This document shows positions 2,908 to 22,214 of a stretch of 35,110 nucleotides of DNA, piece by piece. The first letter of the stretch is position 1, and every line of letters begins with the position of its first letter. The position numbers and the translations under genes were made by a program. The stretch covers positions 1 to 35,110 of the IMG/VR virus record IMGVR_UViG_3300046454_000570; one strand, given 5' to 3'. The stretch comes from a virus. The notes under the pieces were generated by a model. The model was not told the DNA's origin. It saw nothing but the letters and a program-made list of their open reading frames with translations, and ran no database searches.

Positions 2908-3477
2908 ATGGCGAGCACATCGCGGCGGGGCAAGGAAGCGGAGTCGAAGCCGAGGCGCCGCAAGGCGGATGCGAAGCTCACGCCCCGGGACTTCCTGAAC
3001 GAGATCACGAAGACCTCGACCATGGATGTGCCCCTGCCGCCCCTGGAGGAGGTGCTCCAGGCTTTCTATCCTCCGGGTGACAACCGGCATGATCACGCCC
3101 TGGCCATCGCGAGCCACGTCAAGGGCGCCACGGATGTCAAGCACAACGGCGAGCCTGATCCGGGACCCGTGGGCTTGAAGCACACGAGCCCGAACCATGA
3201 CTTCCCGTGGTGGGACCCGCGCGGGCACATGATCGATCAGCTCGCCGAGGAGACCGATGATGGTCTCCCTAAAAGCTTTCATCTGGCCAAGGTGCTGGTG
3301 AACCAGGCGATCAACGGTGACCTCAACTCGGCCAAAGAGGTCATGGACCGCGTGCTTGGCAAGAGCACACAGCATGTCGAGATGCGTTCGGAGCAACATA
3401 TCAACCATTACGATGTCAGCGCAGACCCGGTTGCTTTTGACGTGGTTGTACGTGTGGATGAGACCAAAGATGAGTAA
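2908..3477 (+). CDS. Probable terminase small subunit
   Basis: The 189-residue product starts at ATG 2908 (GTG 2905 is adjacent and possible), after an AGGGGTGAG Shine-Dalgarno. The N-terminus is very basic (about residues 4-25). The C-terminal part has the pattern KVLVNQAINGDLNSAKEVMD then RVLGKSTQ, which is like the 'lvekAleGD..Alk.ildRv.GKp.Q' signature of many small terminase or DUF5681-type packaging proteins. The small terminase recognises the packaging site and loads the motor. Its place two genes before the large terminase supports this. No classical helix-turn-helix is obvious, so the assignment is tentative. Confidence 0.58.
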   Translation: MASTSRRGKEAESKPRRRKADAKLTPRDFLNEITKTSTMDVPLPPLEEVLQAFYPPGDNRHDHALAIASHVKGATDVKHNGEPDPGPVGLKHTSPNHDFPWWDPRGHMIDQLAEETDDGLPKSFHLAKVLVNQAINGDLNSAKEVMDRVLGKSTQHVEMRSEQHINHYDVSADPVAFDVVVRVDETKDE

Positions 3478-3904
3478 TCACATCTATCAGACCCCGGACG
3501 GCATGGTTCACGACATGCGCCTGGGGATACCTCATCTCCTGAGTCATTTCTGCAAGATCCCTCCAGACTACAAGCTCGTGGACAATCCTCATCCGTTCAC
3601 GGCCGAGATCCTGGGCGACGATGGGGTCTGGATGCCCCCCTGCCCGTACTGCAAGCAGCCGCTGGCTGCGGCCAGCGAGCATTTCTCCTTCGTGCGCTGC
3701 GAGATTGCCTATCGCTGCTGGGACTGTGGGATCGTGATGGTGAACAAGGACACGGGCGAGCCTCGGCGGCCCAGGTGGAAGTGCTGGTGCGGGTGTGTCG
3801 ATCACATTTACTATATCAAGGACCCCACCGAGGCGCGCCATCGTGGCTGCGATCACCTTCTGGAGCCCATGAGGATGCCCGAGGAAGTTCGGGAGAATCT
3901 CTGA
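3470..3904 (+). CDS. Zinc-ribbon protein between terminase subunits
   Basis: The start at 3470 overlaps the previous gene by 8 nt. The 144-residue product carries three Cys clusters: CPYC near residue 60, CEIAYRCWDC around 80-90, and CWCGC near 105. These would bind one or two zinc ions in a ribbon fold. No catalytic motif is seen. The TGATG overlap (3902-3906) couples it to the large terminase, so it may be a DNA- or protein-binding accessory of the packaging motor. It is one of several Cys-x2-Cys proteins in the late operon. Confidence 0.8.
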   Translation: MSNHIYQTPDGMVHDMRLGIPHLLSHFCKIPPDYKLVDNPHPFTAEILGDDGVWMPPCPYCKQPLAAASEHFSFVRCEIAYRCWDCGIVMVNKDTGEPRRPRWKCWCGCVDHIYYIKDPTEARHRGCDHLLEPMRMPEEVRENL

Positions 3905-5334
3905 TGTCCGTGGACCTGAGCGCACCGACGGCGAACAGGCTCAAGCTCTTCGGTGGCTCGAAGGAGCAGTGGTGGGCACAAGATAAAGAAGTGCTCATGA
4001 CTGGACCTGCCGGTACTGGAAAATCGGTTTCCATCATCGCGAAATATCATTCCATGTGCCTGGTGAAGCCAGGCTGCCGAATCCTCTTCGTGCGGAAGAA
4101 CCGCGAGAGTATGAACGAGTCGGTACTCTTCACCTACGAGGAGATCGTGCTCAAGATGCTCCCGATCGGGGCGCCGGTCGGTGTCAACGAGATCCAGCGC
4201 CGCAACCGTGACAAGTACGTCTACCCCAACGGCTCCGAGATCATCGTTCGCGGCATGAAGCACAATGGGGCTGATAACAAGGCCGCGGTCATGTCAAACG
4301 AGTATGACGCGATCTATGTGCAGGAAGCCATCGAGCTGACCGAGAAGGACTGGCAGGACCTCACCACCCGGCTCCGCAACTACAAGACCCCCTACCAGCA
4401 GATCACGGGCGACACGAACCCGAGTTCTCCCACGCACTGGCTCTACCGCCGTTATCAGGCCAGGCGCATCCGCTGGATCGAGACGGACCACCGCGACAAC
4501 CCGCGGTACTACGATCATGACAGGAACGACTGGACGCCTGCGGGCAAGGACTATGTGCTCGGGACCCTGGCGAATCTGATCGGCCTGGAGCGGGAGCGGC
4601 TCTACAAGGGCCTCTGGGTGCAGGCCGAGGGTGTGGTCTATCCGGGCTGGGACCCGCGTATCCACATGATCGACAAGTTCGAGATCCCTGGGTCCTGGAG
4701 GCGTATCCGATCTATTGACTTCGGATTTGTTAATCCTTTCGTGTGTCTCTGGGCGGCCGTGGATCACGATAACGTCCTCTACATTTACCGTCAGCTCTAC
4801 CGTACACATCAGACTGTCAAGGTACACGCAAAGCGGATCATTGATCTGGATCGAGGTGATTCTATTGCCTATACCGTTTCTGACCACGATGCGGAGGATC
4901 GGGCAACTCTGGCCGAAAATGGTATCGGTACAGTGAACGCTCGCAAGATGATCCGCCGCGGGATCGATCACGTCACGGAGCGGCTGAAGCTGCGCGGTGA
5001 TGGTAAGCCTGGTCTGCGGGTGCTCCGGGATTCTCTACTGGAACCTGATCCGCAGCTTCTTGAAAAGGGCCATCCGATCTGTCTCGAGGATGAGATGGGT
5101 GCGTACATCTGGCCTCCGGGAAGAGATACGAAGAACGATAATGAGGTTCCTCTGGACCTTCATAACCACGCGGAAGATTCTTTGCGCTATCTCGTTATGA
5201 GCATAGATTATCAGAAAGCACCTGTTGTTCCTGCGACCCAGGAAGAAAATATCCTTCAGATCAAGGAACAGGAGGAGTGGCGCGAACGGAAGCAGATCGA
5301 GCACCTGATGACGTATGGGTGGAATAGCGCATGA
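3904..5334 (+). CDS. terL: Terminase large subunit (ATPase-nuclease)
   Basis: This is the DNA-packaging motor, which cuts concatemeric DNA and pumps it through the portal. The 476-residue length is normal for the family. Walker A is GPAGTGKS at residues 34-41. The Walker B strand is AIYVQE (E141 catalytic), with Gln where Asp or Glu is common. The C-terminal RNase H-like nuclease shows its acidic residues in SIDFGFVNP, SDHDAEDRATL and NHAEDSLRY. The start is ATG 3904 in a TGATG overlap; a longer in-frame start at 3775 would lie inside the upstream gene. The assignment is firm. Confidence 0.96.
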   Translation: MSVDLSAPTANRLKLFGGSKEQWWAQDKEVLMTGPAGTGKSVSIIAKYHSMCLVKPGCRILFVRKNRESMNESVLFTYEEIVLKMLPIGAPVGVNEIQRRNRDKYVYPNGSEIIVRGMKHNGADNKAAVMSNEYDAIYVQEAIELTEKDWQDLTTRLRNYKTPYQQITGDTNPSSPTHWLYRRYQARRIRWIETDHRDNPRYYDHDRNDWTPAGKDYVLGTLANLIGLERERLYKGLWVQAEGVVYPGWDPRIHMIDKFEIPGSWRRIRSIDFGFVNPFVCLWAAVDHDNVLYIYRQLYRTHQTVKVHAKRIIDLDRGDSIAYTVSDHDAEDRATLAENGIGTVNARKMIRRGIDHVTERLKLRGDGKPGLRVLRDSLLEPDPQLLEKGHPICLEDEMGAYIWPPGRDTKNDNEVPLDLHNHAEDSLRYLVMSIDYQKAPVVPATQEENILQIKEQEEWRERKQIEHLMTYGWNSA

Positions 5335-6049: not shown

Positions 6050-6325
6050 ATGGGCAAGACGAGCAAGCCATATACGTTCCTGGGAGTTCCGCTGTCCAGA
6101 CCAGTGAACGAGCAGCCGAAGACTCTGTTTGGGATACCGATTGTCTGGAGTGATGAGGTCTCTGGACCTCCCGAGGGCGGCAGCGAGATGGAAGCTCCTG
6201 TGTTCACAAAGCCGAATTACTATATGTGGACGTGTCTTGTCTGCGATGCCTGGTTCTCAACTGCGGGTCGTGATGATTGTCCGTTTTGTCGAGAGCCCCT
6301 TCCGGAAAAGCTGAGGGCCACTTAA
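6050..6325 (+). CDS. Small zinc-ribbon protein
   Basis: This 91-residue protein has a near-consensus Shine-Dalgarno (AAGGAGGTG) seven bases before ATG. The N-terminal half contains two similar pieces (FLGVPLSRPV and LFGIPIVWSD). The C-terminal half is a rubredoxin-like ribbon, CLVC-x12-CPFC, likely zinc-binding. Its stop is one base before the GTG of the portal gene, so it belongs to the head module. The role is unknown; small ribbons like this often bind nucleic acid or other proteins. Confidence 0.83.
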   Translation: MGKTSKPYTFLGVPLSRPVNEQPKTLFGIPIVWSDEVSGPPEGGSEMEAPVFTKPNYYMWTCLVCDAWFSTAGRDDCPFCREPLPEKLRAT

Positions 6326-6326
6326 C

Positions 6327-8699
6327 GTGCCCGTACCTGCTTCCTTTCGCCGGCTTTCTCCCAGGCGGTCTCCTGTGGCCAATCGCGGCAGCGGCGCGAA
6401 TCCCAGGGGCCGCATCCGGGTGGTGTACGGGACCGGGAGTCAGGGTCCTTCCGACGCCTTCGGTCAGAAGCGACCGCTGGCGCCGATCGAGCTGGTCCAG
6501 AAGTTCAAGAACGCGGTGTACGTGTGCGCCAGTGTCAAGGCTGGAGCGGTGGCCAGCACGAGCAAGCGCCTGTATGCCACGACCAAGAGCGGAGAGAACA
6601 CGCCGCGGCTGAAGACGCGGAGGTTCTACGAGGTCGAGCGCCGCCGCATGGAGCGATACCTGGAGAGCAATGCGGGACCGGATGTCTCCAAGCGGCTGGC
6701 GGGTGTGGATCGGGTGGACGAGGTCACTGAGAGCCCGATCCTCCGCGCCTTCAAGAAGCCGAACCCCTGGCTCACAGCCTTTCAGCTCGTGGAACTGGCG
6801 CAGCTCTACCGGGAGATCGAGGGTCGCGATTTCTGGTACTGGACCATGGGTCCCCTGGGGATTCCCGAGGAGATCTGGCCGCTGCCCTCCTGGATGGTGT
6901 ACGTGCAGCCGGATTTCAGCGGTACGGATGTGGTAAAAAATTATATCTTCACGGGTGGTGGTGCCAATTCTGTCCTCGATCCGAGCCGGTTGATTTACGG
7001 CAAGGAACTGAACCTTGTCGATCCTTACACATCAGCCACCTCCTGGCTCCGCGCCAACAGTCAGCTTGCGGATATTTACGACAGTCAGATCAGTTATCGC
7101 CAGAGCACGCTCCGGAATCGAGGTCGTCCCGACGCCATGTTGATCCCCAAGGAAGAGGGGGGCGAGGTCACGGTGGACAGGGATGCGATCGAATCGATCA
7201 AGATCGAGTATGAGCAGGAATACTCGATGTCGGGTGCTGGGCGGCTCTGGGTGCCCCCTGGAGGCATGGAGCTGAAGCCGGTGTCCTGGTCGCCCACGGA
7301 CATGGGTGAGATCGCCCTGTCCACCTCGGTGCTTCATGACGTGGCCAGAGCCGCACGGGTGCCTATTCCCCTGGTGGACGGCACGGCGGCCAACCGCGCC
7401 AACATGGATGCGGCTCTGCTCTGGTTCAGCAGGGATGCGGTGAGACCGTGCTGCTGGAAACTGGCCGAGCACTGGAATGCACACTTCATTACTCTTTACG
7501 ATAAAGACGATGATGGCGAACAGTTGGAACGCCAGTTCATCGCGTTTGACGATCCGGTTGCGGCGGATCGGGTACAGGAGCGAGAGGAGCATGAGAGCGG
7601 TCTGCGGGAAGGCTACATGCAGACCAATGAGGTTCGGCGATCCGTAGGTCTGCCACCCGTGGAAGGGGGTGATATCATCCGGGTGCCCGTAGGCTACGTG
7701 CCGCTGGAGTATGCCAACGATCCTACCAGGCTTGCAAAGGCCCAGGCAGCAGGGAAACCCGCCGATTCCGGAAGTGCCAAGCTCTCGCGCGGCGACAAGA
7801 ACCAGAACGGCAAGAAGCGGCCCACGGGAGCCAACGATAAGCCATTTGCCGAGGAAGATGATGTTGGCAGCAACAATGGCAAAAAGAAGGCTCTCGAGGG
7901 TGTGGAACGGGAGGGTGAGTATCGCAGCCCTTTCGCTGGTAAGGACCCGGGAGCCCAGGCCATCCTGGATCATGCTCTCGAGGTCCTGGATGAGGATCTG
8001 CTCACAATCACGCCTAGGCGCCGCTATGACCTCCTGCACGTGATCCGGAACGAGGCCCGCTCGTATTTCCGGGTTGAGGCCCAGAGTCTCACGGAAGCGA
8101 TCCTGGAGGCCCAGGCGAAGCCCGAGAAGCGCCTGCTCGGTGATCTTCGCGACAAGGCAGGTACGTTCTTCAAACGGATGGGTCGATCGCTCCGCGAGTT
8201 CATCACCGCGGGCGTACTGGCGCTCTCGGGTCCCCGCTCACTTTCCGAGGACGACAGAGACAGGATCGACGAGGCGCTCAAGTACCACCTTTCCTTCATG
8301 CGGAAGTTTCAGCGCGACCTTCAGGATCGCGGGCTCTCCACCCAGGTCGCCGACACAACGCCGACACCTTACTCGCCAGATCAATTCGCGGCCCAGGCGG
8401 AACTCTACGGGGGTGCGGTCTGGCCCAGTGCGATCAACTTCGTGCGCTCGCACATGATCGGCTCCATCGTCTTTTCCCTGGAGCGCCGCAAGCACATTGG
8501 TCTTGACGTACCGTGTGATGATTGCATCTACCAGCAGGATCTTGGTATTGTGCCCATAGGAACTCTTGATCCCATCGGCGATAGCGTTTGCATGTCGAGC
8601 TGCCACTGCATCTTCATTTTCTATGTGGACGCGGATGACGAACAAGGCTGGATTGCGGGTCGCGGACCACTGGATGAACTGGCGTTTGGAGAACGGTGA
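6327..8699 (+). CDS. Portal protein fused to a MuF-like C-terminal domain
   Basis: The portal forms the dodecameric ring at one capsid vertex through which DNA enters and leaves. Residues ~45-500 match an HK97/SPP1-type portal: an N-terminal wing with NPWLTAFQLVELAQLYREIE, a stem and clip region, and the LWFSRDAVRPCCWKLAEHWN helix. At 790 residues it is far longer than usual (~400-500). After a charged Gly/Lys-rich linker (~490-540) comes a helical region and a C-terminal Cys cluster (C730, C733, C755, C759, C761), reminiscent of the MuF head-morphogenesis domain. The GTG start at 6327 has a weak GAGGG site; an in-frame GTG at 6375 is an alternative. Confidence 0.92.
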   Translation: MPVPASFRRLSPRRSPVANRGSGANPRGRIRVVYGTGSQGPSDAFGQKRPLAPIELVQKFKNAVYVCASVKAGAVASTSKRLYATTKSGENTPRLKTRRFYEVERRRMERYLESNAGPDVSKRLAGVDRVDEVTESPILRAFKKPNPWLTAFQLVELAQLYREIEGRDFWYWTMGPLGIPEEIWPLPSWMVYVQPDFSGTDVVKNYIFTGGGANSVLDPSRLIYGKELNLVDPYTSATSWLRANSQLADIYDSQISYRQSTLRNRGRPDAMLIPKEEGGEVTVDRDAIESIKIEYEQEYSMSGAGRLWVPPGGMELKPVSWSPTDMGEIALSTSVLHDVARAARVPIPLVDGTAANRANMDAALLWFSRDAVRPCCWKLAEHWNAHFITLYDKDDDGEQLERQFIAFDDPVAADRVQEREEHESGLREGYMQTNEVRRSVGLPPVEGGDIIRVPVGYVPLEYANDPTRLAKAQAAGKPADSGSAKLSRGDKNQNGKKRPTGANDKPFAEEDDVGSNNGKKKALEGVEREGEYRSPFAGKDPGAQAILDHALEVLDEDLLTITPRRRYDLLHVIRNEARSYFRVEAQSLTEAILEAQAKPEKRLLGDLRDKAGTFFKRMGRSLREFITAGVLALSGPRSLSEDDRDRIDEALKYHLSFMRKFQRDLQDRGLSTQVADTTPTPYSPDQFAAQAELYGGAVWPSAINFVRSHMIGSIVFSLERRKHIGLDVPCDDCIYQQDLGIVPIGTLDPIGDSVCMSSCHCIFIFYVDADDEQGWIAGRGPLDELAFGER

Positions 8700-9035: not shown

Positions 9036-10532
9036 ATGTCGTCCGTACCTCTCGAGAAATACTATCAGTCCGTGTCCCAGGATGGTCCTGTGGGTGATGA
9101 CGAGGCGATTGTCATCATCAACACGGATCGACTGGATCGTGATCGTGAGGTCGTGGTGCCCTCGGGAGGGCGGTTTGACGACTATCGCCGTAACCGGGTG
9201 GTGATGTTCGGGCATTCCAAGGGAAATCCCTCGGATGGGGATGCGGCTTTTCCGGTTGCTAAAAATATATGGATCAAGCCGACGGAGGATGGTCGCGGCC
9301 TGATTGCCAGGCACCAGTTCAATACGAAGCTGGAACTGGGCCAGAAGGTTTGCCAGCAGGTCAAGGACAATTTCCTCTCCAGTCATTCCATCAAGTTCCT
9401 GCCGATTCGCTGGGGACCACCGACTCGTGCCGAGATCCAGAAGAATCCGAGCTGGGCGGATGCCAAGACGGTGTATCGCGAGTGGTCGCTTCTGGAGTAT
9501 TCCGTACTCGTGTTTCCGGCCAACCCGGATGCCATCACGCTGGTGAAAGGGGCCAGGTCCATGGGCGACGTACTTGATCACGAGCCGGTGAAGTTCGCGA
9601 AGGAACTGGTTCAGGAAGCCAGCGAGTTCGTGGCGTCCCAGGAAGAAGCGAGCGAGATGATCGCGCGCTCCTGCACGAGCGAGACGATCTTCAAGGGCTT
9701 TCTGGATCATGCCGAGGCCAAGGGTGAGAAGCTCGGGGATGTGCGCGTCGCCATGCTGCGGCCGATCGTGGACGCACTCACGAGTTCCCTGAACTCCTAT
9801 CTCTGGAGCGTGATCTACGACTGGCGCGAGGAGCCGGGTTCGTATTCCGACAAGATCGGTGCGGCGTGCACCGAGTTCTGCGAGGCGGCAATCACGGCGT
9901 TCGAGGCGTTCGAGCCTTTGAAGATTCAGGACGAGAAGAACCTCAAGATGGAGGCCCTGGTCAAGGGGATGTCCCTGGAGTCGATCGATCTCTTCGGTGA
10001 TCCAGCCCAGATCCTTGCGGATGGTCTGGCTGAGGCCATGGAATCCAAGGAAGTGGACGAGGGTGACGCGGTGGAGCGGGCTCAGAGCGTTGTTGAGGAA
10101 GAAGAGGAAGAGGACGGGGACGAAGGTCCTCCGATCAAGCCAGGGGATCATGTCAAGTGCATGGCGTCTCATGTCAAGGGGTACGCCAAGTGCATGAGCG
10201 TGCATACCAAGGAGATGGTTCCGGATGTCGAAGATGACATCATGGGCAGCAAGGAAGATCCCGCGGTTCGTGTGAAGATGTACAAGAAGATGGGTGATGG
10301 TTACACACCGACGGCACACCATCGGGGGCTCAAGATGGCGGATTGCAAGAAGACGGAACCCTTGAAGCCACCGAGCAAGGCCAAGGCCCTGGAAACCAAA
10401 GAGGATCTGTCATCCTGGAACGACTCCGATATGGCTGTCGCCGTGGAGATGATCCGTTCGACTCCGGAGCACAAAAAAGCGATGGAGGTTGCGGTCCTCG
10501 ATCAGATTGCGGTAATGTTGGGACGAGTGTGA
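9036..10532 (+). CDS. Prohead protease (HK97 type) with long C-terminal extension
   Basis: This is the maturation protease (family S78) that trims capsid and scaffold in the prohead. The family N-terminus is clear: INTDRLDRDREVVVPSGG, with catalytic His60 (MFGHSKG), Ser118 (SSHSIKF) and Glu154 (LLEYSVLVFPANPDA). The normal protease ends near residue 180-200, but this protein is 498 residues. Residues ~180-340 are helical and acidic, as in a fused scaffold. The last ~130 contain a Cys/His-rich repeat (HVKCMASHVKGYAKCMSVHT) with an acidic run before it. No separate scaffold gene is visible, so the extension is probably the scaffold. Confidence 0.9.
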   Translation: MSSVPLEKYYQSVSQDGPVGDDEAIVIINTDRLDRDREVVVPSGGRFDDYRRNRVVMFGHSKGNPSDGDAAFPVAKNIWIKPTEDGRGLIARHQFNTKLELGQKVCQQVKDNFLSSHSIKFLPIRWGPPTRAEIQKNPSWADAKTVYREWSLLEYSVLVFPANPDAITLVKGARSMGDVLDHEPVKFAKELVQEASEFVASQEEASEMIARSCTSETIFKGFLDHAEAKGEKLGDVRVAMLRPIVDALTSSLNSYLWSVIYDWREEPGSYSDKIGAACTEFCEAAITAFEAFEPLKIQDEKNLKMEALVKGMSLESIDLFGDPAQILADGLAEAMESKEVDEGDAVERAQSVVEEEEEEDGDEGPPIKPGDHVKCMASHVKGYAKCMSVHTKEMVPDVEDDIMGSKEDPAVRVKMYKKMGDGYTPTAHHRGLKMADCKKTEPLKPPSKAKALETKEDLSSWNDSDMAVAVEMIRSTPEHKKAMEVAVLDQIAVMLGRV

Positions 10533-10535
10533 AGC

Positions 10536-10620
10536 CCCGATCGATATCGGGCCTGGGGCCGCCCCCAGTTCTTCCTGTCTATCAAGGTGTGCGTAAGTGT
10601 TAGCCTGGGGCCGCCCCCAG
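10536..10620 (+). promoter_or_regulatory. Three stem-loops with an 18-bp direct repeat before the capsid gene
   Basis: The gap between protease and major capsid gene holds CCCGAT-CGAT-ATCGGG (10536-10551). GCCTGGGGCCGCCCCCAG then occurs twice (10551-10568 and 10603-10620); each copy folds as CTGGGG/CCCCAG with a 4-nt loop. No T-run follows, so these are not classical terminators. They could stabilise a processed capsid mRNA or attenuate transcription. The capsid Shine-Dalgarno ACAAGGGG follows at about 10650. Confidence 0.6.
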
Positions 10621-10665
10621 GGGGAGACATCCGCATCGCCGGGTTCCCGCACAAGGGGACCATTC

Positions 10666-12093
10666 ATGGCACTGAAGACGTATGTGGTCGCCAAGAGCTT
10701 CATGAACCTTCCGGTTCAGTCGGAGCATGAGTTTGAAGAGGCGGATGTCGTCGAGCTGCTTTCTTCGGGCAAGCTCCTGGTCAAGGACGACAACGGCATG
10801 AAGGAGGCCAAGGTCAAGGCCATGTCCGACTACCAGGACATCGCCCAGACCATCCTCAAGGGCCTCACCAAGGCCCTGGGCGAGTCCTCCAAGAAGGGGC
10901 TCGACTTCTCCGTGGTGGGCCAGGAGCAGGCCAAGCCCAAGGAGGAGCAGTCCCTTCGTGAGTGCCTCCAGGCTATCGGGTGGGCGGGCTCCACGAGCCA
11001 CGACACCATGGGCGGTTTCTATACCAAGGGTATGAACCTGCTCTCCAAGAAGTACAACATGCCCGTGTCCAAGGAGTTCAACGGGCAGTTCGATGAATCC
11101 ACTCGCATGGAAAAAGTGAGTGACGACGGGACGGTCGAGAAGGCCCAGACGACCCAGGCCGAGAACATCGGAGCTTACGGCGGTTTCGCCCTCAAGCCCG
11201 AGTTCAGCCAGACCTTCTTCACGCTCATGGGTATGAAGTCGGTGCTGGTGGAGCGAGTCACGAAGCGGATTGTGACTACGCTCGACTACTACGAGCCCAC
11301 CAAGGATTACTCCCTGGGCGGCAACGGCGCCTCGCCCTTCCTCGCCGGCATGACGGGGTCCTGGCTCCAGGAGAACATGCCGTTCAACAACACCGTGATG
11401 GCGATTCGTCAGATCCATCTCAAGATGAATCTGTTCGGTGCCTTGACGGTAGTGCCGCGTCAGCTTCTGTTCGACAACGCTTATGCGTTCGAGTCGATGC
11501 TGACCGAGAACTTTGCCGAGACGGCGGCCTTCTATCTAGCGCAGTCGATCTTCAACGGTTCCGGTGCGGCCCAGCCTTCGGGCATGACGAATGCGACCTC
11601 GGCCCTACCCCGCAATCGCACAGCGGCTGCCAACGGCGCACTGCTCTCCGACCTGGCCACGATGGTCAGCCTGATGCTTCCCGACGAGGGGGCGCAGAAC
11701 CGGTACTTCTGGATGGTGAGCCCCTCGGCGTATGCCGCTCTCCTCCAGTTGACCGATGGTACGGGTCGCGTCATCTTCCTGCCCAACTTCCCGGCAACCA
11801 CGGGTGGTCCCGCCACGGTGCGGACCCCGATGATGCTCTTCGGGATGCCGGTGGTCCGCAGCCAGTTCCCGTCGTCTTCCGGGACGGCACGGGACATCTG
11901 CCTGATCGACCCCATGCCCTACCTCCTGGGCCTGCGCCAGGAACTCGAGGTGGCCTCGAGCGAGCATGTTAACTTCCAGAGCAATCAGATGACCTATAGG
12001 TTTCTGTTGCGTGCCGATGGTAAGAGCGCATTGAATACTTATCTGACGTTGGCCAACGGCGACACGGTGGCTCCGGTCATCTACCTCAACTGA
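10666..12093 (+). CDS. Major capsid protein (HK97 fold)
   Basis: The 475-residue product starts at ATG 10666 after an AAGGGG site; an in-frame ATG at 10597 lies in the stem-loop region and is unlikely. The first ~120 residues are charged and helical, like the scaffold-like delta domain that the protease removes. The HK97 fold then begins around GAYGGFALKPEFSQ. The C-terminus shows the typical pattern MLFGMPVVRSQFPSSSGTA, then DICLIDPMPYLLGLRQ and MTYRFLLRADGKSAL. It forms the shell hexamers and pentamers. Only one copy is seen, directly downstream of the protease. Confidence 0.95.
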   Translation: MALKTYVVAKSFMNLPVQSEHEFEEADVVELLSSGKLLVKDDNGMKEAKVKAMSDYQDIAQTILKGLTKALGESSKKGLDFSVVGQEQAKPKEEQSLRECLQAIGWAGSTSHDTMGGFYTKGMNLLSKKYNMPVSKEFNGQFDESTRMEKVSDDGTVEKAQTTQAENIGAYGGFALKPEFSQTFFTLMGMKSVLVERVTKRIVTTLDYYEPTKDYSLGGNGASPFLAGMTGSWLQENMPFNNTVMAIRQIHLKMNLFGALTVVPRQLLFDNAYAFESMLTENFAETAAFYLAQSIFNGSGAAQPSGMTNATSALPRNRTAAANGALLSDLATMVSLMLPDEGAQNRYFWMVSPSAYAALLQLTDGTGRVIFLPNFPATTGGPATVRTPMMLFGMPVVRSQFPSSSGTARDICLIDPMPYLLGLRQELEVASSEHVNFQSNQMTYRFLLRADGKSALNTYLTLANGDTVAPVIYLN

Positions 12094-12150: not shown

Positions 12151-12594
12151 ATGTACTCAAACAGGATCAGTGAGACGCACAACCTTGTCTCGACGATCCA
12201 GGCGAAGAACGGCACGGGCAGCTATTACGGTGATGCGATCTCGCTGGATAGCACCATCGGCCGTCGCTTCGTGGCCTACGTCAACGAGGGGACTATTGGC
12301 TCCTCGGGGACCGTGGACTTCGAGTTCCAGTGGAGTGCCACTTCAGGTGGCACCTATGCCACGATCACCGGCGCCAAGATGGTGCAGGACCTCACGGGCG
12401 GCAAGACGTTCCAGGTGGAGATCGCCACCGAGGCGATCATCCAGCTTTTCCCCACTGCGAAGTGGATGAAGCCGTACCTGAAAACGCTCGTGGCGGCCAC
12501 GCCCACCTCCGTCATCGTTGTGGCCACCGAGATGGCCTATGTCCCCTGCCCTCAGAGCGCGGCGAACGCGGGTGCGGTCGTGGCGGTTCCTTGA
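12151..12594 (+). CDS. Probable capsid decoration or minor head protein
   Basis: This 147-residue, beta-rich protein lies just after the major capsid gene with a strong AGGAGG site. Its pattern VDFEFQWSATSGGTY, then ITGAKMVQDL and a later YLKTLVAATPTSVIVVATEM segment, is that of small beta-sandwich phage head proteins. Decoration (cement) proteins commonly occupy this position and bind the outside of the shell. The family is not certain, and a minor tail role cannot be excluded. No signal peptide; one Cys near the end. Confidence 0.75.
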   Translation: MYSNRISETHNLVSTIQAKNGTGSYYGDAISLDSTIGRRFVAYVNEGTIGSSGTVDFEFQWSATSGGTYATITGAKMVQDLTGGKTFQVEIATEAIIQLFPTAKWMKPYLKTLVAATPTSVIVVATEMAYVPCPQSAANAGAVVAVP

Positions 12595-12606: not shown

Positions 12607-13104
12607 ATGCCGCGTCTCAAACTGTTCGTGAATCACCTTGTGGTGGCGCCTCTTGATCCTCCGGCTCCGTGCTGTGATCCCCACAAGGATCATGGCGCGG
12701 GCGAGGACTGCAAGAGGGCGCAGCGAGGTGTTGTGCTGTTCGTGGGTCCTGGCAAGGCGGCTTATTCGATTGCCTTCAAGCCAGGGGATGTGGTGTGGTA
12801 CGATCAGGGGGTCGGACACTGGGCTTCTGTCGGTGAGAATGATGTCGTTGTGATCGACGATTCCGAGGTCTTTGCGCTGGAGAGCGACCTGGAGCACGAG
12901 ACCGCCATCAAGAAGAAGGCACGGCAGGTGCTTCAGGATGCGGGGATCACCGTGGACGGCAAGTTCGAGGTTGATCCCAAGGTCTCGATCTGGCATGAGG
13001 ATGACGATCAGGATCACAAGGACACAGGCACGGAGCATGCTGCTGACCTTGGCCCTGATCCGCTTTCGGAATCCAGCCTGGGCCTCAAGAAGGCCACGGT
13101 TTAA
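12607..13104 (+). CDS. GroES/cpn10-like protein, degenerate mobile loop
   Basis: The 165-residue product has GGAGG six bases before ATG. Residues ~5-95 follow the cpn10 barrel: LVVAPLD strand, then RGVVLFVGPGK (G41-K50), FKPGDVVWYD and NDVVVIDDSEVFAL. Where GroES has its mobile loop with the GG-IVL GroEL contact, this protein has PAPCCDPHKDHG-AGEDC (C22, C23, H26, H29, C35), which looks metal-binding and lacks the hydrophobic tripeptide. The C-terminal 65 residues are acidic and His/Asp-rich. It lies directly before a better cpn10, so the pair may form mixed rings. Phage cpn10 such as T4 gp31 helps the capsid protein fold. Confidence 0.75.
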   Translation: MPRLKLFVNHLVVAPLDPPAPCCDPHKDHGAGEDCKRAQRGVVLFVGPGKAAYSIAFKPGDVVWYDQGVGHWASVGENDVVVIDDSEVFALESDLEHETAIKKKARQVLQDAGITVDGKFEVDPKVSIWHEDDDQDHKDTGTEHAADLGPDPLSESSLGLKKATV

Positions 13105-13121
13105 CCACACGAGTCCAAGCG

Positions 13122-13820
13122 ATGGTCCACCGCATCTCGCTGTTTGATGACTACATCGCGATCCTGCCCCTGGAGACCTCCTCGGTCTCCCAGGGCGGGA
13201 TCTTGATTCCCGAGACGGCGCGCAAGAAGTCTCAGCGCGGCCGGGTGCTGTTCGCGGGGCCAGGACGTCCGAAACCGGATGGTGAGAGCCGCTGGCCGAT
13301 GCCGGTGAATCCTGGCGACATCGCTCTCTACATGCAGTATGCCGGTCACGAGATCGATTCCAATGGGCATACGATCACGGTCATGAAGGCCAGCGAGCTG
13401 CTGGGCAAGATCGAGGAGATCGATGATCCGGCACTGAACGAGATCTTCAGGCCAGAAGAAGAGCCAGAAGACGAGATTCTCGATGTTCCCGAAGGCATGG
13501 AGAAACCCGCCTGTCCCCGATGTGGTCTGGAGTTGGTTCAAGAGGCATTCAGCTACAAATATTACGACAAAGAAATCCAGGCTTGTGGATGCGAAGATTG
13601 TGGACTGATCCGGATCAACGAGGACGGAACCACGGAGCGGATCTTTGGGCGGTGCAAGAGCTGCCAGAAGGTGGATGTGGTCAGGGCGACTCCGTTTGCT
13701 CTGGGCTGTCAATTCCGGGTCTCGGGATGTACTTGCCAGGATTCCCGGTTCGATCAACTGACTCGCGAGCAGGCCCTTCCCTACATCCGTGCTTACGATA
13801 GAGAGGAGGTGTCGCTGTGA
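13122..13820 (+). CDS. GroES/cpn10 co-chaperonin fused to zinc ribbons
   Basis: Residues ~4-97 are a clear cpn10: FDDYIAILPLE, a mobile loop SSVSQGGILIPETARKKS with the GroEL-contact tripeptide at G26-I29, then RGRVLFAGPGR, VNPGDIALYM and the last strand TVMKASELLGKI. Residues ~105-125 are an acidic linker. Residues 131-205 hold ten Cys in pairs (C131/134, C155/157/160, C178/181, C196/203/205), likely two zinc ribbons. A cpn10 with a zinc-ribbon tail is unusual. It would cap the host GroEL and may deliver the phage capsid protein. Start is ATG 13122 with a weak ribosome site, in keeping with coupling to the gene before. Confidence 0.88.
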   Translation: MVHRISLFDDYIAILPLETSSVSQGGILIPETARKKSQRGRVLFAGPGRPKPDGESRWPMPVNPGDIALYMQYAGHEIDSNGHTITVMKASELLGKIEEIDDPALNEIFRPEEEPEDEILDVPEGMEKPACPRCGLELVQEAFSYKYYDKEIQACGCEDCGLIRINEDGTTERIFGRCKSCQKVDVVRATPFALGCQFRVSGCTCQDSRFDQLTREQALPYIRAYDREEVSL

Positions 13821-14152
13821 AGATCCGCATTCTGGGTGAGACCGATCGTCCCGGGTTCTATCAGTTCTGTTATGTCACAGCCTCGCCTCGCTCCGAATCC
13901 AAGGAGGTCAAGACCGAGGCCAAGGACACCAGCCTCAAGGGCGACGAGTCGAAATCCAAGGAGTCCGATTTCGAGCTTGATCCGGATTTCGAGACCGATT
14001 CCGAGCCCAGGGAAGAGTGGGTGGATCAGACGGATGGCGGCAATAACGCCTATGACTCCGATGGCCGGAGGGTTCCCGTGGGTGTGATTGTCGATTCGGA
14101 GGTGACGGCTCTGGGTCACCGCATCCTCTGGAACCCGGAAGGCCCATCATGA
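13817..14152 (+). CDS. Acidic low-complexity protein
   Basis: The GTG start at 13817 has GAGGAGGTG six bases upstream and overlaps the previous stop by 4 nt. The 111-residue product starts with a beta strand (MKIRILGETDRPGFYQFCYV), then a highly charged Ser/Lys/Glu/Asp segment (~25-75) predicted disordered, and ends with GRRVPVGVIVDSEVTALGHR. No domain is recognised. It ends in ATGA with the glycosyltransferase gene. It may be a partner or substrate of its neighbours; this is inference from position only. Confidence 0.72.
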   Translation: MKIRILGETDRPGFYQFCYVTASPRSESKEVKTEAKDTSLKGDESKSKESDFELDPDFETDSEPREEWVDQTDGGNNAYDSDGRRVPVGVIVDSEVTALGHRILWNPEGPS

Positions 14153-15240
14153 GCCGTCTTCGCGTGGGCTTTCTGGTGCCCCAGTTGAGTCGGACGGGCG
14201 GCACCGAGACCTGGCACCAGATCCTGATCAGGAGCCTCAAGGATCATCCTGAGATCGAGGTCGTGGGCCTTGGTGTTGTCGAGGATCATCCGACCCACGA
14301 AGAAATTCGGCCTTTCGAGGATCTCGGGTGCTTTGTGGGCCGGTGCCCTTCGGAGGTTTCCGGGATCATCCAGGAGTCTCATATCCTGATTACCTGGGGA
14401 ATGGGTGATCTCGAGTTCATCCAGAAATCCAGCGATGTGGCACGGGTCACGATGGTCGCGCACGGCGACGGCCAGTTCCCCGAGTTCGTCCAGGCCAACC
14501 ATGATGCCTCACCCTGGGTGGATCAGTATGTTGCGGTCTCCCAAGCTGCGCTGGAGGCGATTCCAGAAGATCGTCGCGAGGACGCCACGGTCATCTGCAA
14601 CGGTGTCAATGAGGACCGTCTGGTTCCTCGGATTACCCGTGTGGGTCAGCGTGATCTCTGGGGAATCCCCCAGGGTGCCAGGGTGCTGGGCATGGTGTGT
14701 CGCGCGTCCCAGGAAAAAGACCCCAAGGCCCTGATCCGTGCCATCAGCAATCTGCCCGATTACTGGTACGGTGTGCTCGTGGGTGATGGTCCCGAGCTGC
14801 TCAACTGCGCCGCCAGCGCCTATGGCCAGACGACCCGGTGTTTCTTTCCTGGGGCGCAGGAAGATATTGGTAGTGCCTATCTGGCCATGGACTGTCTGCT
14901 CTCGGCCAGTCTCTCCGAGGGGTTCGGATATTCGGCACTGGAGGCCATGATCCTGGGGTTGCCCGTGGTGGCAACGCCTGTGGGCATCCTGCGCGATGCG
15001 GAGAAATCACACGCATGTCCCGTCGAAATCGTCCCAGTCCACAGCCCAGGCAACCTGCTGGCTCAGGCAGTGGAGCGAGCCGCGATCAAGATCACGAACG
15101 AACAGGGCCAGAACCTTCTGAGGTTTGCGAGCCTGACCGTGAAGACCAGTTACTCGGCAGAGACGTTCTGCCGGAAGTGGACCGATTACCTTCTGAGGCT
15201 TCCATGCAAGAACAGAGCGCTTTCCTCGACAGCCCCTTGA
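14149..15240 (+). CDS. Glycosyltransferase, GT4-like (GT-B fold)
   Basis: The 363-residue product matches the GT-B group 1 family, which moves sugars from NDP-sugar donors. The N-terminal Rossmann domain has LVPQLSRTGGTE with the acceptor GG loop. The C-terminal domain has VLVGDGPELLNC and the family E-x7-E motif, SEGFGYSALEAM (E257 and E265), then GLPVVATPVG. No membrane segment or signal is seen, so it is cytoplasmic. It overlaps the previous gene by 4 nt and lies within head genes, which points to glycosylation of a virion protein, host receptor or nearby acidic protein. The length is standard for the family and it looks intact. Confidence 0.9.
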   Translation: MSRLRVGFLVPQLSRTGGTETWHQILIRSLKDHPEIEVVGLGVVEDHPTHEEIRPFEDLGCFVGRCPSEVSGIIQESHILITWGMGDLEFIQKSSDVARVTMVAHGDGQFPEFVQANHDASPWVDQYVAVSQAALEAIPEDRREDATVICNGVNEDRLVPRITRVGQRDLWGIPQGARVLGMVCRASQEKDPKALIRAISNLPDYWYGVLVGDGPELLNCAASAYGQTTRCFFPGAQEDIGSAYLAMDCLLSASLSEGFGYSALEAMILGLPVVATPVGILRDAEKSHACPVEIVPVHSPGNLLAQAVERAAIKITNEQGQNLLRFASLTVKTSYSAETFCRKWTDYLLRLPCKNRALSSTAP

Positions 15241-15548
15241 AGCCGTCACTCGAACAGAAATCTCCGGTGATTCCGGATGTGGTCTGCCCTCGCTGTGCTT
15301 CTCTGGCGCCTCCCCAGAAGGTGGAGGACCGTGGCACCTATATGGTGTACAAGCGCCGGTGTCCAACCAGTTTGCCCACGATTGACGGTATGAAGACGTG
15401 CGGGCCAATTGCGAACATCGGGACTCATGAGGAGTTCCAGAAGCTCGCTCCGGCCAACATGCAGATCACCCAGGATCAGTGGCGCCAGCTCATGGCCGCT
15501 CTCGTGGCGAATGTGGCTGTCAAGTCTCTTCAGGGAGCAGGTGTTTGA
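15204..15548 (+). CDS. Small Cys-x2-Cys protein
   Basis: The ATG at 15204 has GAGG five bases before it and overlaps the glycosyltransferase end by 37 nt; a longer reading at 15015 is within that gene and is rejected. The product is 114 residues. A CPRC pair (~28-31) and two later Cys (RRCPTSLP and MKTCGPIAN) suggest a zinc ribbon. The C-terminal half is helical (TQDQWRQLMAALVANVAVKS). The function is unknown. It sits between the glycosyltransferase and the connector gene. Confidence 0.78.
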   Translation: MQEQSAFLDSPLKPSLEQKSPVIPDVVCPRCASLAPPQKVEDRGTYMVYKRRCPTSLPTIDGMKTCGPIANIGTHEEFQKLAPANMQITQDQWRQLMAALVANVAVKSLQGAGV

Positions 15549-17195: not shown

Positions 17196-20100
17196 ATGTC
17201 AGCAGTTAATTGTATCGCCAGCGTGGCCTTGTCGGGCGAGACGATCATCGTTGCGCTCACAGATTTTGGTGGTAGTCCCACGAATGTGCTGTCCTATGCC
17301 ACTACGGTCACCGAACTGATCGACGTCCGCGCGGCTGGTGGGACATACACGCTCGAATTTCCGCCCACAAGCGGCCACATAACCTCCGCTCTGGCGGTTG
17401 GTGCTCCGGCGGCGACGGTCCAGGCGGCGCTCGAAGCCCTATCCTCGATCGGAAGTGGCAATATATCGGTTGTGAGCGAATACCCTTATCAGGCGACCTT
17501 CCTTAACACGCTGAACACGCCTCAGCCGCTGTTCACGGTGGACAAGACAGGACTCTCGGCGACCTCCAGCGCCGCACCGCTCACGGCCGGAACGACGGCG
17601 CAGCAGATCCTCGATGCCAGCACAAATTTTGCGAAGGTCGGTGCTGCATGGACAGCTACCGGATTCGGGTCAGGGTCGGGCTGGAAGGTTGTTGCTGACG
17701 GATCGGGACTCAATACGGCTGAGTGGACGATCACCGGGCTCGCCACCGGAAACTACAATATTTATTATGCCAACAGCGGGCCAACGGGTTCTGGAAATGC
17801 TACGACCGTTCCCTGGCGGTTCTTCGACGGCAGCGCTCCGCGCGTGAAGACGATCGTCAATCAGCAGGCACTGGTTCCGGATAATTTCGCTCTGCCTGGT
17901 GATGCTTCTGACGCTTTTCAGCTTCTCGCTACTGTTTATATCTCATCTGGTACGCTCCGCGTCCTCGTGACCGATCAGGTTGCGGGTGGCGACATCGGCA
18001 AGCTCGTTTGCGTGAACAAGATCGGTATCGTGCCGGTTGATCCCGCTGTGAATTTGATCCTCGATGGTGCGCACACACCTGCCTATCTGTTCTTCGCAGG
18101 TGGATCTTGGGGGAGCTTTGCTGCCGACTGGAACAACTCCCAGCACTTCTCGAATGTGTCGGGCGGTTCGGCAACCTGGCTGTTCCTGGGACTCATTCCC
18201 GGCTCGACCTACAAGGTCCAGTCTCAGTGGGGCGAGCAGAGTAATCGATCTACGAACTGTGTCTATTCGATTATCGACAGTGATGGCACAACTGTGCTGG
18301 GGACGTCCTCGGTCAATCAGCAGGTCGCTCCCGCGGGCGGACAGACGCTCACCGATTCGTTGAGCCAGACGTTCACGTTTCAGGATCTTGGCACCTACAC
18401 GCCCACGGGGACCTCGCTCCGTCTTGTCCTGCCGATCGCCACGGGTGGTAACTACACGATCGCGTCAGGGGCACTGGTCCAGCTCCAGACCGCCGCAGGC
18501 TACGCCGAGCCGGTATCGTCTTCGGTGGCGAACCTCTCGACCGGGCCGCCCACGATCACGATCAACGGATCGGATACACGGACTTTGGTCAGTCCGAACT
18601 GGCCGACATCTCAGAACCCACCAGCCAATTTCATGGGGTTTCTTGTTCCTGGATCGCCGATCCTGACGACGGACACCGTGACGATCAGTATCTCGGGCAG
18701 CTCGATCGGTACATCAGCAGGAACGCTGCCCACCGTCACGAATCAGGCGGTGGTGAACTCGGTCGGCAAGTCGCTGGGCAGGACGATGCCGGGCTCGCGA
18801 CCGCTCAAGGTAGGATGGAATTTTGCTGAACTCGGGCAGGGATTTGTTCCGCTCTATGCCAACATGGTGAAGAATAACGTGGGCTGGCAAACGCTCGCGT
18901 CTGCGGCTGATCTGACCGCGGATCTCTTGCCCAGGTACACATCAAATACTGGCAATTATTTCATGCAGTTCGGTCAGAGTGGCCCGCCAAACGAGACCTC
19001 CTCGGAAGGCTTTCCGCTCTGGCCACAGACCGGTACGACGACTTTTATCCTGGATGGAGCGGTCACCGGGTTCCCGACGATCCTTCCCCAGCCGGGAACC
19101 ACGATGGCGTTTCAGTCGATGGACACCGGCCACGCCACCGGGAACACAATCAAGATCAACTTCGCCGTTGATGGCTCGAACACGACCTTTGCGCCACAGT
19201 TTAATTTCTACGCACCCACCGGGCTCATGGATATCTGCGACGATGCGGATACCGGGCGGTTCTCCATCGCGGCGGGGACATGGACGGTTCAATCGGGTGG
19301 ATGGAACGGTCACTATCATCGCAACAGCAAGCTCGCAACCGATAAGGCGGTGTTCACCTTCGGAGCGATCCCGGCGGGCAACTGGGAGGTCGCGATCTGC
19401 TGGGTCGGCAACGCCGCCAATACGACCACGGCAAATGTGGTCGTCAAGGAGGCGGGTGTATCGGTTGCGAGCTATACCGTTGATCAGACCACGTCACCAT
19501 CCGCAACTGTTAACGATTACAATCATGCGGTATTTGGATTCGACCTGGGGACGGATTTCGTCTCCACGGGCGGCATCATCACCGTCGAGATCACGGGCGG
19601 TACGGATGGGTGGTGCCTGGCCGATGCGGTGCGGATCAAGTGCGACAGCACGCTCGGCTCGCCGATCGTGCCGATGACCGACTTCAAGGTCTATCCGCCT
19701 GATCCGGACATTGATCCTGCCAGTCCGCCCAAGTTTCACCCGATCTTTCTGCGAAAGTTCGCGGGCGTGGGCTCGCTGCGCTCGATGATCCTGTTCGACT
19801 CGAACTTCGGCTGCTACACGGAACTCAGTGATTATGCGAGCCAGACGCAGCTTTATTATGGTGGCGAATGGGGGCAGAACCAGTACACCATCACGCAGGT
19901 AGAGACGTGGTCCGATCCGAACGGGGATTGGACGGCAAACGCGGATATCTGCCCGGCCCTGTTCACCGTGACGCCGATCAATGGAGCGCCGTTGCCCCTG
20001 ACCAAGGGATTCAAGGGCCAGTTCCCCACACCGCTCGTGGTCAAGTACACTGACTGGACCAGCGGCAACGGTCACGTCATCGACTTCTCCTTGCTGCTCA

Positions 20101-22214
20101 ACTGGATCGAGTACGATCCGGTCCACATGGCGACGAACCAGTTTGCCTGTGGAAATTTCGCTTTCGGGCCGCATGCCCTGACAACTCTGAACCCGACTGC
20201 GCCCTGCACCATCTCGTTCGGGCGTTCCGGGATTCCGATCGCAGACTACTTCGAGCTTTGTGTTGATGTTGGCTGTACTGTCCACCTGAATCTGACCTCG
20301 ACAGTCTCACAGACGTGCATCGACGACGTTGCGGCGCTCTACACGTCGATCGTGCCGGTTGGCACCAAATTTATCCTGGAAATCTCGAACGAGCCCTGGA
20401 ACTTCCGGTTTCCCGACTTCGGCTATTTCGGCGCACTCGACATCGAACTGGGTCTTGGTAGCGAGCTGCATGCCTACGCCAAGGTGGCCTCCGATCGTCA
20501 TGGCTGGATGACCACGGCGCTCGGCTCACGTTCGGGCGAGTTGATCCGTGCGTTCAACTGCCAACTCGACGATTTTTCCACCGGCGCACAGGTGCTCGAC
20601 TATTGCAACACGAATAGCAAGCCGGTGGATCTCATCCTGGTCTCGGATTATCTGGGGCCATATCCCGCATTGCAGCCGGGACTCGATGCTACTTACGAAC
20701 TGTGTACCGCTGGGCATTCAGTCGATTTCGTCGATGCTTGGCTGAACGTCTCGACCCGGTTCTCGGCTCAGTTCATCGGCTGGCAAGCCACGGCTGTCGC
20801 TCAATCGACGGCTGCGCCGCTTTCGCGGCATTGCGACTGGGGGATCTACGAAGGCGGCCAGTACACCAACGGCATGGGCGGGTCCACTCCGACCATCAAT
20901 CGGCAGTCCTATGCGGGTCGATACCATCCGCTCGAATACCAGGTAACGATCAGTTACATGGCGATGATGCAGTTCTATGGGGCCACTTACTACAATCACT
21001 TCTGCATCGATCAGAGCCCTGGAGCCTTTGCTCTGTTCGGCGTGTACTACGGCTATGACGCACTTGCGGGCAAGGGCGACGGCTCCGACGGCAAGCACAA
21101 TAACTTGCCGGATATCGCAGGTGTCCCGCCTGGTGTCGTGGACTTCAATACGGCGGTGACACCGATCGGTCAGGCATACGATGATTGGAACTCGGGCGCA
21201 ATTGTTGCCACGACCTACACGCTTACTGCGCCAGCACCCTCAACAGGAAAACCCGGAACAGCTTCCGCGGACTTCACGGTCCAGTGCGATGCCATACCAT
21301 CGTCTCCTGTGACCATCACGCCGGCTGTGGGCTCAGGTGGCGGCGGAACATTCACGCCATCAAGCCTTCTGGTCTCGGATGCCAATCCGCACACATTCAA
21401 ATACACACCTTTCAGTACCGGCAACAAGATCATCGCCTGCACCAATGATGGTGGGCTGACTGATCCAGGGGCCGTTACCTTCACGGCTTATTCGCTCGCG
21501 GTTTCGCCGGGTGCTCAGGAAGTTGCGGTCAGCACGGCGGCGACCATGACGGCAACGCTTACGGGTGGCACGGGCAGCCTCACGGCTTCAACAGATGTGG
21601 GAACGCTCTCCACGACCACGCCGACTTCCGGGACTCCGTTCACGCTCACGACTCCTTCAAGTGGGTCGGGCCATGCCACCGTGACCGTGACCGGTCCAGG
21701 CGGAACAAGCGCAGTGGCTCGGGTTTATTTCCCTGTAAGCGGTGCTCAGTACCCCTTCAGTCCGATCGGAGACAGAATGAACTTCCTGCCCTCGAATTAT
21801 CGGATCAACGTCTACAACGGACTCCAGGTCCCCACGCCACCCAACAAGATCACGCTCACACTCTCTCCCTATACGGTCGTGAGTGGGTCCAAGGTACCCG
21901 GAAGCGATGTACCGATCATCGCGCCCTCGGACGGATCACCCGCCAGTGCGGCCATTCCCGCAAGCTCCTATGGGGCAGCCGCCAAGATCACAGGGAACAC
22001 GAACCTTTCGGGCGATCTGGCCTGCTCGATTGACCTTTCTGGAGTGGCAGGTCTGAAGCCGGGAGGCACGATCTCCTTCTATCTTCAGGTCTGCGGAACC
22101 ACGATCAATCCACCCGATGGCAAGGGCCTGGTGGTGCTCACGATCCCGATTGACAAGGCGGGCGTCTTCACGGGAACGGTCTGTCTTGATGGACTGCTTC
22201 CGCTACTGAATTGA
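17196..22214 (+). CDS. Giant virion adhesin with golvesin-like modules and a GH-A-like glycosidase domain
   Basis: The 1672-residue product is modular. Residues ~40-125 contain a phage-type beta module (GGTYTLEFP, AATVQAALEALSSIGSGNI). Three golvesin/xanthan-lyase-like carbohydrate-binding modules follow at about 135-280, 290-435 and 680-818, with YKVQSQWGEQSN and GWCLADAVRI signatures. A TIM-barrel-like part (~870-1320) carries ILEISNEPWN (N1065-E1066), the clan GH-A acid/base motif, and IYEGGQ (E1219), a candidate nucleophile. Two Ig-like modules follow (~1331-1515). No signal peptide is seen. It probably binds and cuts capsule or exopolysaccharide on the virion surface. Its place between head closure and tail genes is unusual. 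Confidence 0.85.
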   Translation: MSAVNCIASVALSGETIIVALTDFGGSPTNVLSYATTVTELIDVRAAGGTYTLEFPPTSGHITSALAVGAPAATVQAALEALSSIGSGNISVVSEYPYQATFLNTLNTPQPLFTVDKTGLSATSSAAPLTAGTTAQQILDASTNFAKVGAAWTATGFGSGSGWKVVADGSGLNTAEWTITGLATGNYNIYYANSGPTGSGNATTVPWRFFDGSAPRVKTIVNQQALVPDNFALPGDASDAFQLLATVYISSGTLRVLVTDQVAGGDIGKLVCVNKIGIVPVDPAVNLILDGAHTPAYLFFAGGSWGSFAADWNNSQHFSNVSGGSATWLFLGLIPGSTYKVQSQWGEQSNRSTNCVYSIIDSDGTTVLGTSSVNQQVAPAGGQTLTDSLSQTFTFQDLGTYTPTGTSLRLVLPIATGGNYTIASGALVQLQTAAGYAEPVSSSVANLSTGPPTITINGSDTRTLVSPNWPTSQNPPANFMGFLVPGSPILTTDTVTISISGSSIGTSAGTLPTVTNQAVVNSVGKSLGRTMPGSRPLKVGWNFAELGQGFVPLYANMVKNNVGWQTLASAADLTADLLPRYTSNTGNYFMQFGQSGPPNETSSEGFPLWPQTGTTTFILDGAVTGFPTILPQPGTTMAFQSMDTGHATGNTIKINFAVDGSNTTFAPQFNFYAPTGLMDICDDADTGRFSIAAGTWTVQSGGWNGHYHRNSKLATDKAVFTFGAIPAGNWEVAICWVGNAANTTTANVVVKEAGVSVASYTVDQTTSPSATVNDYNHAVFGFDLGTDFVSTGGIITVEITGGTDGWCLADAVRIKCDSTLGSPIVPMTDFKVYPPDPDIDPASPPKFHPIFLRKFAGVGSLRSMILFDSNFGCYTELSDYASQTQLYYGGEWGQNQYTITQVETWSDPNGDWTANADICPALFTVTPINGAPLPLTKGFKGQFPTPLVVKYTDWTSGNGHVIDFSLLLNWIEYDPVHMATNQFACGNFAFGPHALTTLNPTAPCTISFGRSGIPIADYFELCVDVGCTVHLNLTSTVSQTCIDDVAALYTSIVPVGTKFILEISNEPWNFRFPDFGYFGALDIELGLGSELHAYAKVASDRHGWMTTALGSRSGELIRAFNCQLDDFSTGAQVLDYCNTNSKPVDLILVSDYLGPYPALQPGLDATYELCTAGHSVDFVDAWLNVSTRFSAQFIGWQATAVAQSTAAPLSRHCDWGIYEGGQYTNGMGGSTPTINRQSYAGRYHPLEYQVTISYMAMMQFYGATYYNHFCIDQSPGAFALFGVYYGYDALAGKGDGSDGKHNNLPDIAGVPPGVVDFNTAVTPIGQAYDDWNSGAIVATTYTLTAPAPSTGKPGTASADFTVQCDAIPSSPVTITPAVGSGGGGTFTPSSLLVSDANPHTFKYTPFSTGNKIIACTNDGGLTDPGAVTFTAYSLAVSPGAQEVAVSTAATMTATLTGGTGSLTASTDVGTLSTTTPTSGTPFTLTTPSSGSGHATVTVTGPGGTSAVARVYFPVSGAQYPFSPIGDRMNFLPSNYRINVYNGLQVPTPPNKITLTLSPYTVVSGSKVPGSDVPIIAPSDGSPASAAIPASSYGAAAKITGNTNLSGDLACSIDLSGVAGLKPGGTISFYLQVCGTTINPPDGKGLVVLTIPIDKAGVFTGTVCLDGLLPLLN

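Follow-up and report, generated by a model that had tools for sequence, protein, structure and literature searches.

An intact Cpn10 with a cysteine-rich tail and a diverged Cpn10 lacking the GroEL-binding motif are encoded side by side in the head module of an uncultivated phage

In phage T4, the capsid protein requires the Cpn10-type protein gp31, which is built without roof loops, in order to fold (PMC6318259). The first-pass annotation of the DNA studied here drew on this precedent when it proposed that a phage Cpn10 can serve capsid folding. In the siphovirus B8b, a GroES gene lies within the structural cluster (PMC4294664). Arabidopsis Cpn10(1), a roofless protein that is inactive by itself, functions solely when it shares a ring with Cpn20, and GroEL binding is said to need no more than four working subunits of the seven (PMC4242682). 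A chloroplast Cpn11/20/23 heterotetramer sits on the ClpP core (PMC8889267), and HspA of Helicobacter pylori is described as a nickel-scavenging chaperone (PMC8779794). Here we analyze two adjacent genes, ORF1 and ORF2, from an uncultivated phage known as a linear virus record of 35,110 nt (IMG/VR IMGVR_UViG_3300046454_000570); the window is this whole record.

The head module runs in the order terminase, HNH gene, portal, S78-type prohead protease, HK97-type capsid, a 147-aa ORF, ORF1 and ORF2 (Table 1), so the two consecutive Cpn10 genes that had been noticed after the capsid genes are indeed there. On the 3' side of ORF2 come a short acidic ORF, which matched nothing in a family search, a glycosyltransferase gene, and then the connector and tail genes. 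ORF1 ends 17 nt before ORF2 and has a GGAGG ribosome-binding site; none is obvious for ORF2. Third-position GC is 0.68 in ORF1 and 0.70 in ORF2, and their codon-position GC resembles that of the neighboring genes. Because the acidic ORF overlaps ORF2 at its start and the glycosyltransferase gene at its end, these three genes probably form one transcription unit. A search of the record for groEL found none, so any GroEL partner would be the host's or encoded in genome sequence that the record lacks.

Table 1. Positions of the head-module genes and of the Cpn10 features within the window.
Feature	Coordinates	Strand	Remarks
Free-standing 144-aa zinc-ribbon gene	3470-3904	+	Upstream of terL, overlapping its listed start
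Terminase (terL)	3775-5334		Listed start GTG 3775
Portal protein	6327-8699	+	PF04860 E 2.3e-32
S78-type prohead protease	9036-10532		Pfam
HK97-type major capsid protein	10597-12093	+	PF05065 E 1e-29; TIGR01554 E 6e-38
147-aa ORF	12151-12594		Between capsid gene and ORF1
ORF1, 165 aa, diverged Cpn10 by sequence	12607-13104	+	Pfam/PHROG/NCBIfam Cpn10 E 5.6e-4 to 2.4e-3
ORF1 segment replacing the mobile loop	12655-12726	+	Residues 17-40, PLDPPAPCCDPHKDHGAGEDCKRA; C22, C23, H26, H29, C35
ORF2, 232 aa	13122-13820	+	Cpn10 (residues 8-97), acidic linker, Cys-rich tail
ORF2 mobile loop, GroEL-binding motif	13185-13226	+	Residues 22-35, VSQGGILIPETARK; aligned with viral Cpn10s
ORF2 ten-Cys tail	13512-13736	+	Residues 131-205; CxxC...CxxC ribbon and second CxxC...C...CxC set
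111-aa acidic ORF	13817-14152	+	Start overlaps ORF2 stop (GTGA)
Glycosyltransferase, GT4-type	14149-15240		Inside head module, 3' of the Cpn10 genes

Two other features of the record deserve mention. As listed, terL shares about 130 bases at its start with the zinc-ribbon gene; translation probably begins at a later position. Between the connector and tail genes lies a 1672-aa ORF (17196-22214) with a Golvesin C-terminal domain (PF25275, E 1.8e-13) and a NEPWN motif, as in glycoside hydrolases; its product is possibly a virion-borne glycan-active protein.

By sequence comparison, ORF2 is a genuine Cpn10. It matches Pfam Cpn10 (PF00166) at E 2.1e-15, its 56.9 bits lying well above the curated cut-off of 21.1, and PHROG 3188 at E 5.7e-16. 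Among solved structures, its sequence matches Cpn23 (7ekq, E 4.8e-18), M. tuberculosis Cpn10 (E 1.2e-15) and E. coli GroES (E 1.5e-6). An AlphaFold2 model, computed from an alignment with 51 other Cpn10 rows that included ORF1, shows a barrel in which most residues exceed pLDDT 90 (94-97 across residues 41-100), and Foldseek matches it to 1p3h (E 2.1e-8, TMt 0.79); the GroES β-barrel fold is present. The hydrophobic GroEL-binding tripeptide is intact within GGILIP (residues 25-30), as G25-G26-I27-L28-I29, and the loop sequence SVSQGGILIPETARKK is of the normal GroEL-binding type. The GG-ILI mobile loop read from the letters in the first-pass annotation is thus borne out, and the sequence gives good support to a role for ORF2 as a GroES substitute.

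Single-protein scans of viral contigs, species genomes and GenBank phages returned no close relative of full-length ORF1 or ORF2, and a scan of the viral contigs with the capsid protein returned none either. The three GenBank phage matches to ORF2 were set aside as uninformative: two are Acinetobacter "phage" records, of which the one we opened resembles a host contig, and the third is a 5-kb fragment. In the opened record (L007, CAKLQF020000019.1), titled Acinetobacter phage MD-2021a, bacterial metabolic genes surround groES-groEL; glpK, pckG and efflux genes are among its contents.

ORF1 is harder to recognize. In a protein scan it reaches 20.3 bits against Pfam Cpn10 (E 5.6e-4; cut-off 21.1) over residues 36-90 only, in a DNA-level search 21.1 bits, equal to the cut-off, and against NCBIfam GroES E 5.6e-4. 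A hidden Markov model of viral Cpn10s that held neither ORF1 nor ORF2 finds it at E 4.1e-5. Its Smith-Waterman score against the ORF2 barrel is 87 (z 12.7), compared with 26.8 ± 4.7 for 2000 shuffles (maximum 57). These comparisons indicate that ORF1 is a diverged Cpn10, and with them the reading of both products as Cpn10 barrels holds. ORF1 scores the same 87 against another viral Cpn10, L215, and is no closer to ORF2 than to that protein, so its origin by duplication within this genome is possible rather than demonstrated.

The AlphaFold2 model of ORF1 has a barrel with pLDDT of about 90 across residues 40-90, both terminal strands and a loose loop at about residues 16-37. Its significant Foldseek matches are all Cpn10s, including 1wnr (E 2.4e-5) and T4 gp31 (1g31, E 5.6e-3). 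Because the input was a Cpn10 alignment, which biases the model towards the barrel fold, we base the claim of homology on the sequence comparisons. Weak matches to cupins were also considered for ORF1 and ruled out by the stronger Cpn10 evidence and by the fold search, whose significant matches were Cpn10s alone.

What ORF1 has lost is the part of a Cpn10 that contacts GroEL. The hydrophobic tripeptide is absent, and PCCDPHKDHGAGEDCK stands in its place. The replacement segment is 3 residues longer than the ORF2 loop, is modeled with pLDDT 60-73, and carries the CC-H-H-C cluster that the first reading had picked out. These 3 Cys and 2 His compare with at most one Cys or His in each of 107 other viral Cpn10 domains (mean 0.10). 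Two further features had escaped that reading. The roof hairpin is incomplete, 6 residues shorter than that of ORF2 between GPG and PGD, a shortening also seen in the alignment in some ordinary single viral Cpn10s, and a 70-aa C-terminal extension has a predicted helix and a His/Asp-rich end.

Beyond residue 100, ORF2 consists of an acidic linker and the tail, whose ten Cys fall at positions 131, 134, 155, 157, 160, 178, 181, 196, 203 and 205. They had been described as zinc ribbons. The count and the CxxC-type spacing hold, and we pair the knuckles as C131/C134 with C157/C160 and C178/C181 with C196/C203/C205. However, no curated Pfam zinc-ribbon family matches the tail above its cut-off: the best, PF23548, reaches 21.6 bits against a cut-off of 27, and FGT1_2 (E 1.6e-4) and DUF7479 (E 2.6e-4) are likewise below threshold. 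The AlphaFold2 model of the tail has pLDDT of about 40-60 and no confident fold. With these matches below threshold and a model of such low confidence, it is the Cys spacing that suggests two zinc ribbons.

The free-standing zinc-ribbon gene upstream of terL may point to where the tail came from. Its product scores 74 against the ORF2 tail (31.7 ± 6.3, maximum 69, for 3000 shuffles with Cys held in place), the likeness lying in the first ribbon. A similar free-standing gene sits upstream of the portal in L311, a portal relative (E 0.0025 against this gene). The most economical account is the fusion to a Cpn10 of a ribbon module that these phages keep in their head modules. Zinc-ribbon-like proteins are unusually dense in the head module here: besides the ORF2 tail, three small genes carry CxxC motifs (3470-3904, 6050-6325 and 15210-15548).

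The position of the pair next to the capsid genes has parallels elsewhere. A single ordinary Cpn10 lies directly 3' of the portal in three of the five loci with related portals (L312, L313, which is the same as L208, and L314), a biased estimate because the query alignment of the portal scan held the Cpn10-bearing L208; L312 and L314 came in as new contigs, independent of that query. In all three, the genes after the Cpn10 encode a protease and a capsid protein that are likewise related to those of the ORF1/ORF2 phage, making these loci remote relatives of its portal-protease-capsid module. The post-portal Cpn10 of L312 (6365-6958) has a C-terminal extension of about 95 aa with no Cys cluster. 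In L165, a Cpn10 upstream of the portal and capsid genes is directly followed by a glycosyltransferase-like gene (PHROG 2456, E 9e-5), comparable to the one downstream of ORF2. A terminase was detectable in 19 Cpn10-bearing viral records, and in 9 of them it lies within about 6 kb of the Cpn10. The flanks of 80 loci with related terminases contained no Cpn10, nor did those of the 80 loci whose capsid genes are nearest, so most capsids of this kind manage with no Cpn10 close by.

Synteny in the remote relatives is supporting evidence, drawn from gene order, for a head-assembly role of Cpn10. Together, the portal synteny, the proximity to terminases and the precedents of gp31 and B8b support a role for ORF2 in folding head proteins, and we consider it probable that ORF2 works as a co-chaperonin for them. 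Judging by gene position, the major capsid protein would be the folding client.

To see how widely the pair occurs, we surveyed viral Cpn10s in two overlapping scans (69 and 80 loci), which together cover about 140 loci and 107 distinct domains. Neither a Cys-rich Cpn10 tail nor a separate short ORF1-like degenerate Cpn10 adjoining a Cpn10 was found in these roughly 140 other loci, and the ORF1/ORF2 arrangement was also absent from the 80 terminase-related and 80 capsid-related phage loci. Two Cpn10 matches occur in 7 of 50 Cpn10-bearing viral records, mostly far apart. In 14 of the 50, groEL is also present, and some of these may be host DNA.

One of the 7 is L162 (G036), where a 218-aa gene about 1 kb upstream of the terminase encodes an intact Cpn10 (VSKGGIIIPETAKKK) and, after it, another barrel that lacks the motif. 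This fusion indicates that the pairing of intact and degenerate Cpn10s recurs, and the coupling probably arose at least twice in phages. The first-pass annotation had called the arrangement new and suggested a search of phage databases for the pair. The search bears this out for the exact form, found in one genome only, but not for the pairing itself, which L162 already has in a single gene; a Cpn10 in a phage head cluster is likewise known already, from B8b (PMC4294664), and is syntenic in the remote relatives. With the pair confined to one genome, a joint function of ORF1 and ORF2 is without the support of co-conservation. A further two-Cpn10 locus (L129/L166) was dropped as a phage precedent since it adjoins groEL and may be host DNA. 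Directly upstream of groES-groEL in L166, a 276-aa protein (4384-5211, G028) has one clear and one weak Cpn10-like barrel; this unusual multi-barrel Cpn10 relative is perhaps the host's.

We propose that the phage supplies its own GroEL lid for head assembly. Seven copies of ORF2 would assemble into a ring like that of GroES, with the GGILI loop as its contact to host GroEL, and would assist the folding of head proteins, among which the product of the nearby upstream capsid gene is the likeliest client. ORF1 still has the barrel and the terminal strands for ring contacts, but neither the GroEL-binding motif nor the full roof. It would most likely enter mixed rings with ORF2 as a minority subunit, giving a lid that is more open and has a lower affinity for GroEL. 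The Cys/His loop of ORF1 and the tail of ORF2 may bind metal, which would stabilize the ring or recruit a client. We put the probability of the proposal as a whole at roughly 40%. Its least secure part is ORF1: we favor mixed rings weakly and tentatively, because ORF1 is homologous to the ORF2 barrel, its terminal strands are modeled, and the L162 fusion and the Arabidopsis case offer parallels.

A stronger version would make the pair a metal-dependent hetero-oligomeric GroEL lid, an ORF1/ORF2 ring of fixed composition. Its opening would come from the loopless, short-roofed ORF1, whose Cys/His cluster would bind metal, and ORF2 would select head-protein clients by its zinc tails. We regard this as distinctly unlikely; if true, such a ring would be, to our knowledge, the first viral obligate mixed-ring co-chaperonin. 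As far as we know, phage Cpn10s that tune host GroEL for capsid folding are always a single protein.

The most serious alternative leaves ORF2 as the sole co-chaperonin and takes ORF1 to be repurposed, the old Cpn10 barrel now serving as a head decoration, another structural protein or a metal-binding protein. The loss of the only GroEL-contacting element, the gain of the Cys/His cluster and the 70-aa extension, and a place in a structural operon, between the ORF behind the capsid gene and ORF2, all fit this idea. Yet the barrel and terminal strands have been kept, an intact Cpn10 lies only 17 nt downstream, and the L162 fusion suggests that degenerate copies remain with intact ones; we find repurposing doubtful, though well worth keeping in mind.

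ORF1 might instead act as a brake or spoiler that enters rings of ORF2 or of host GroES and lowers their affinity for GroEL, thereby setting when head proteins are let go or drawing GroEL away from the clients of the host. A loopless subunit is expected to weaken the multi-loop binding of a ring, given the four-of-seven threshold quoted in PMC4242682, and ORF1, upstream of ORF2 and with the stronger ribosome-binding site, could be made in excess. Arabidopsis Cpn10(1), however, raised rather than lowered the activity of mixed rings (PMC4242682), and we judge a brake unlikely. That ORF1 is a functionless, decaying Cpn10 copy would account for the lost loop motif and partial roof, but we hold it to be very unlikely: the frame is intact, the ribosome-binding site good and the codon-position GC normal, and random decay is not expected to yield five loop Cys/His against a mean of 0.1 elsewhere. 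Finally, that the rings cap a target other than GroEL, as chloroplast Cpn11/20/23 does on the ClpP core, with the zinc modules choosing the target, is hardly credible: the top solved-structure match of ORF2 is the Cpn23 of a Chlamydomonas ClpP complex, but rank among Cpn10s says little about function, the ORF2 loop is of the normal GroEL type, and the prohead protease of this phage is S78-type rather than ClpP.

With a loopless protein beside an intact one, a combination seen again in the L162 fusion, the pair would be a simple natural system for asking how many GroEL-binding loops a lid needs and whether the make-up of a lid determines how large the cage is and which clients it takes. The Cys-rich tail would be a possible client-recruiting or metal-sensing addition, one not described for GroES in the papers we found. 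H. pylori HspA resembles ORF2 in being a Cpn10 with a metal-binding C-terminal extension. The HspA tail is short, His-rich and nickel-binding; HspA is cellular rather than phage-encoded, and its tail is not a ten-Cys domain. The L162 gene also joins an intact to a degenerate Cpn10 in a phage head and packaging region, but in one polypeptide that has neither Cys cluster nor zinc tail. The B8b GroES gene of Pseudoalteromonas shares the location inside a structural cluster, but it is a single copy of 125 aa for which neither a second Cpn10 nor a zinc tail is reported (PMC4294664).

A pair is also known in chloroplast Cpn10(1)/Cpn20, in which an inactive, roofless Cpn10 needs another Cpn10-type protein (PMC4242682). 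That system belongs to a plant plastid, its Cpn10(1) retains the mobile loop, and the metal-binding loop is absent; the phage pair could help to explain why plastids evolved mixed lids. T4 gp31 is likewise a phage-encoded Cpn10 fold, and ORF1 is similarly short in the roof, its model matching the gp31 structure. The gp31 loop is longer but working, and gp31 acts alone, whereas here there are two genes, one without the GroEL-binding motif and one with a Cys-rich tail.
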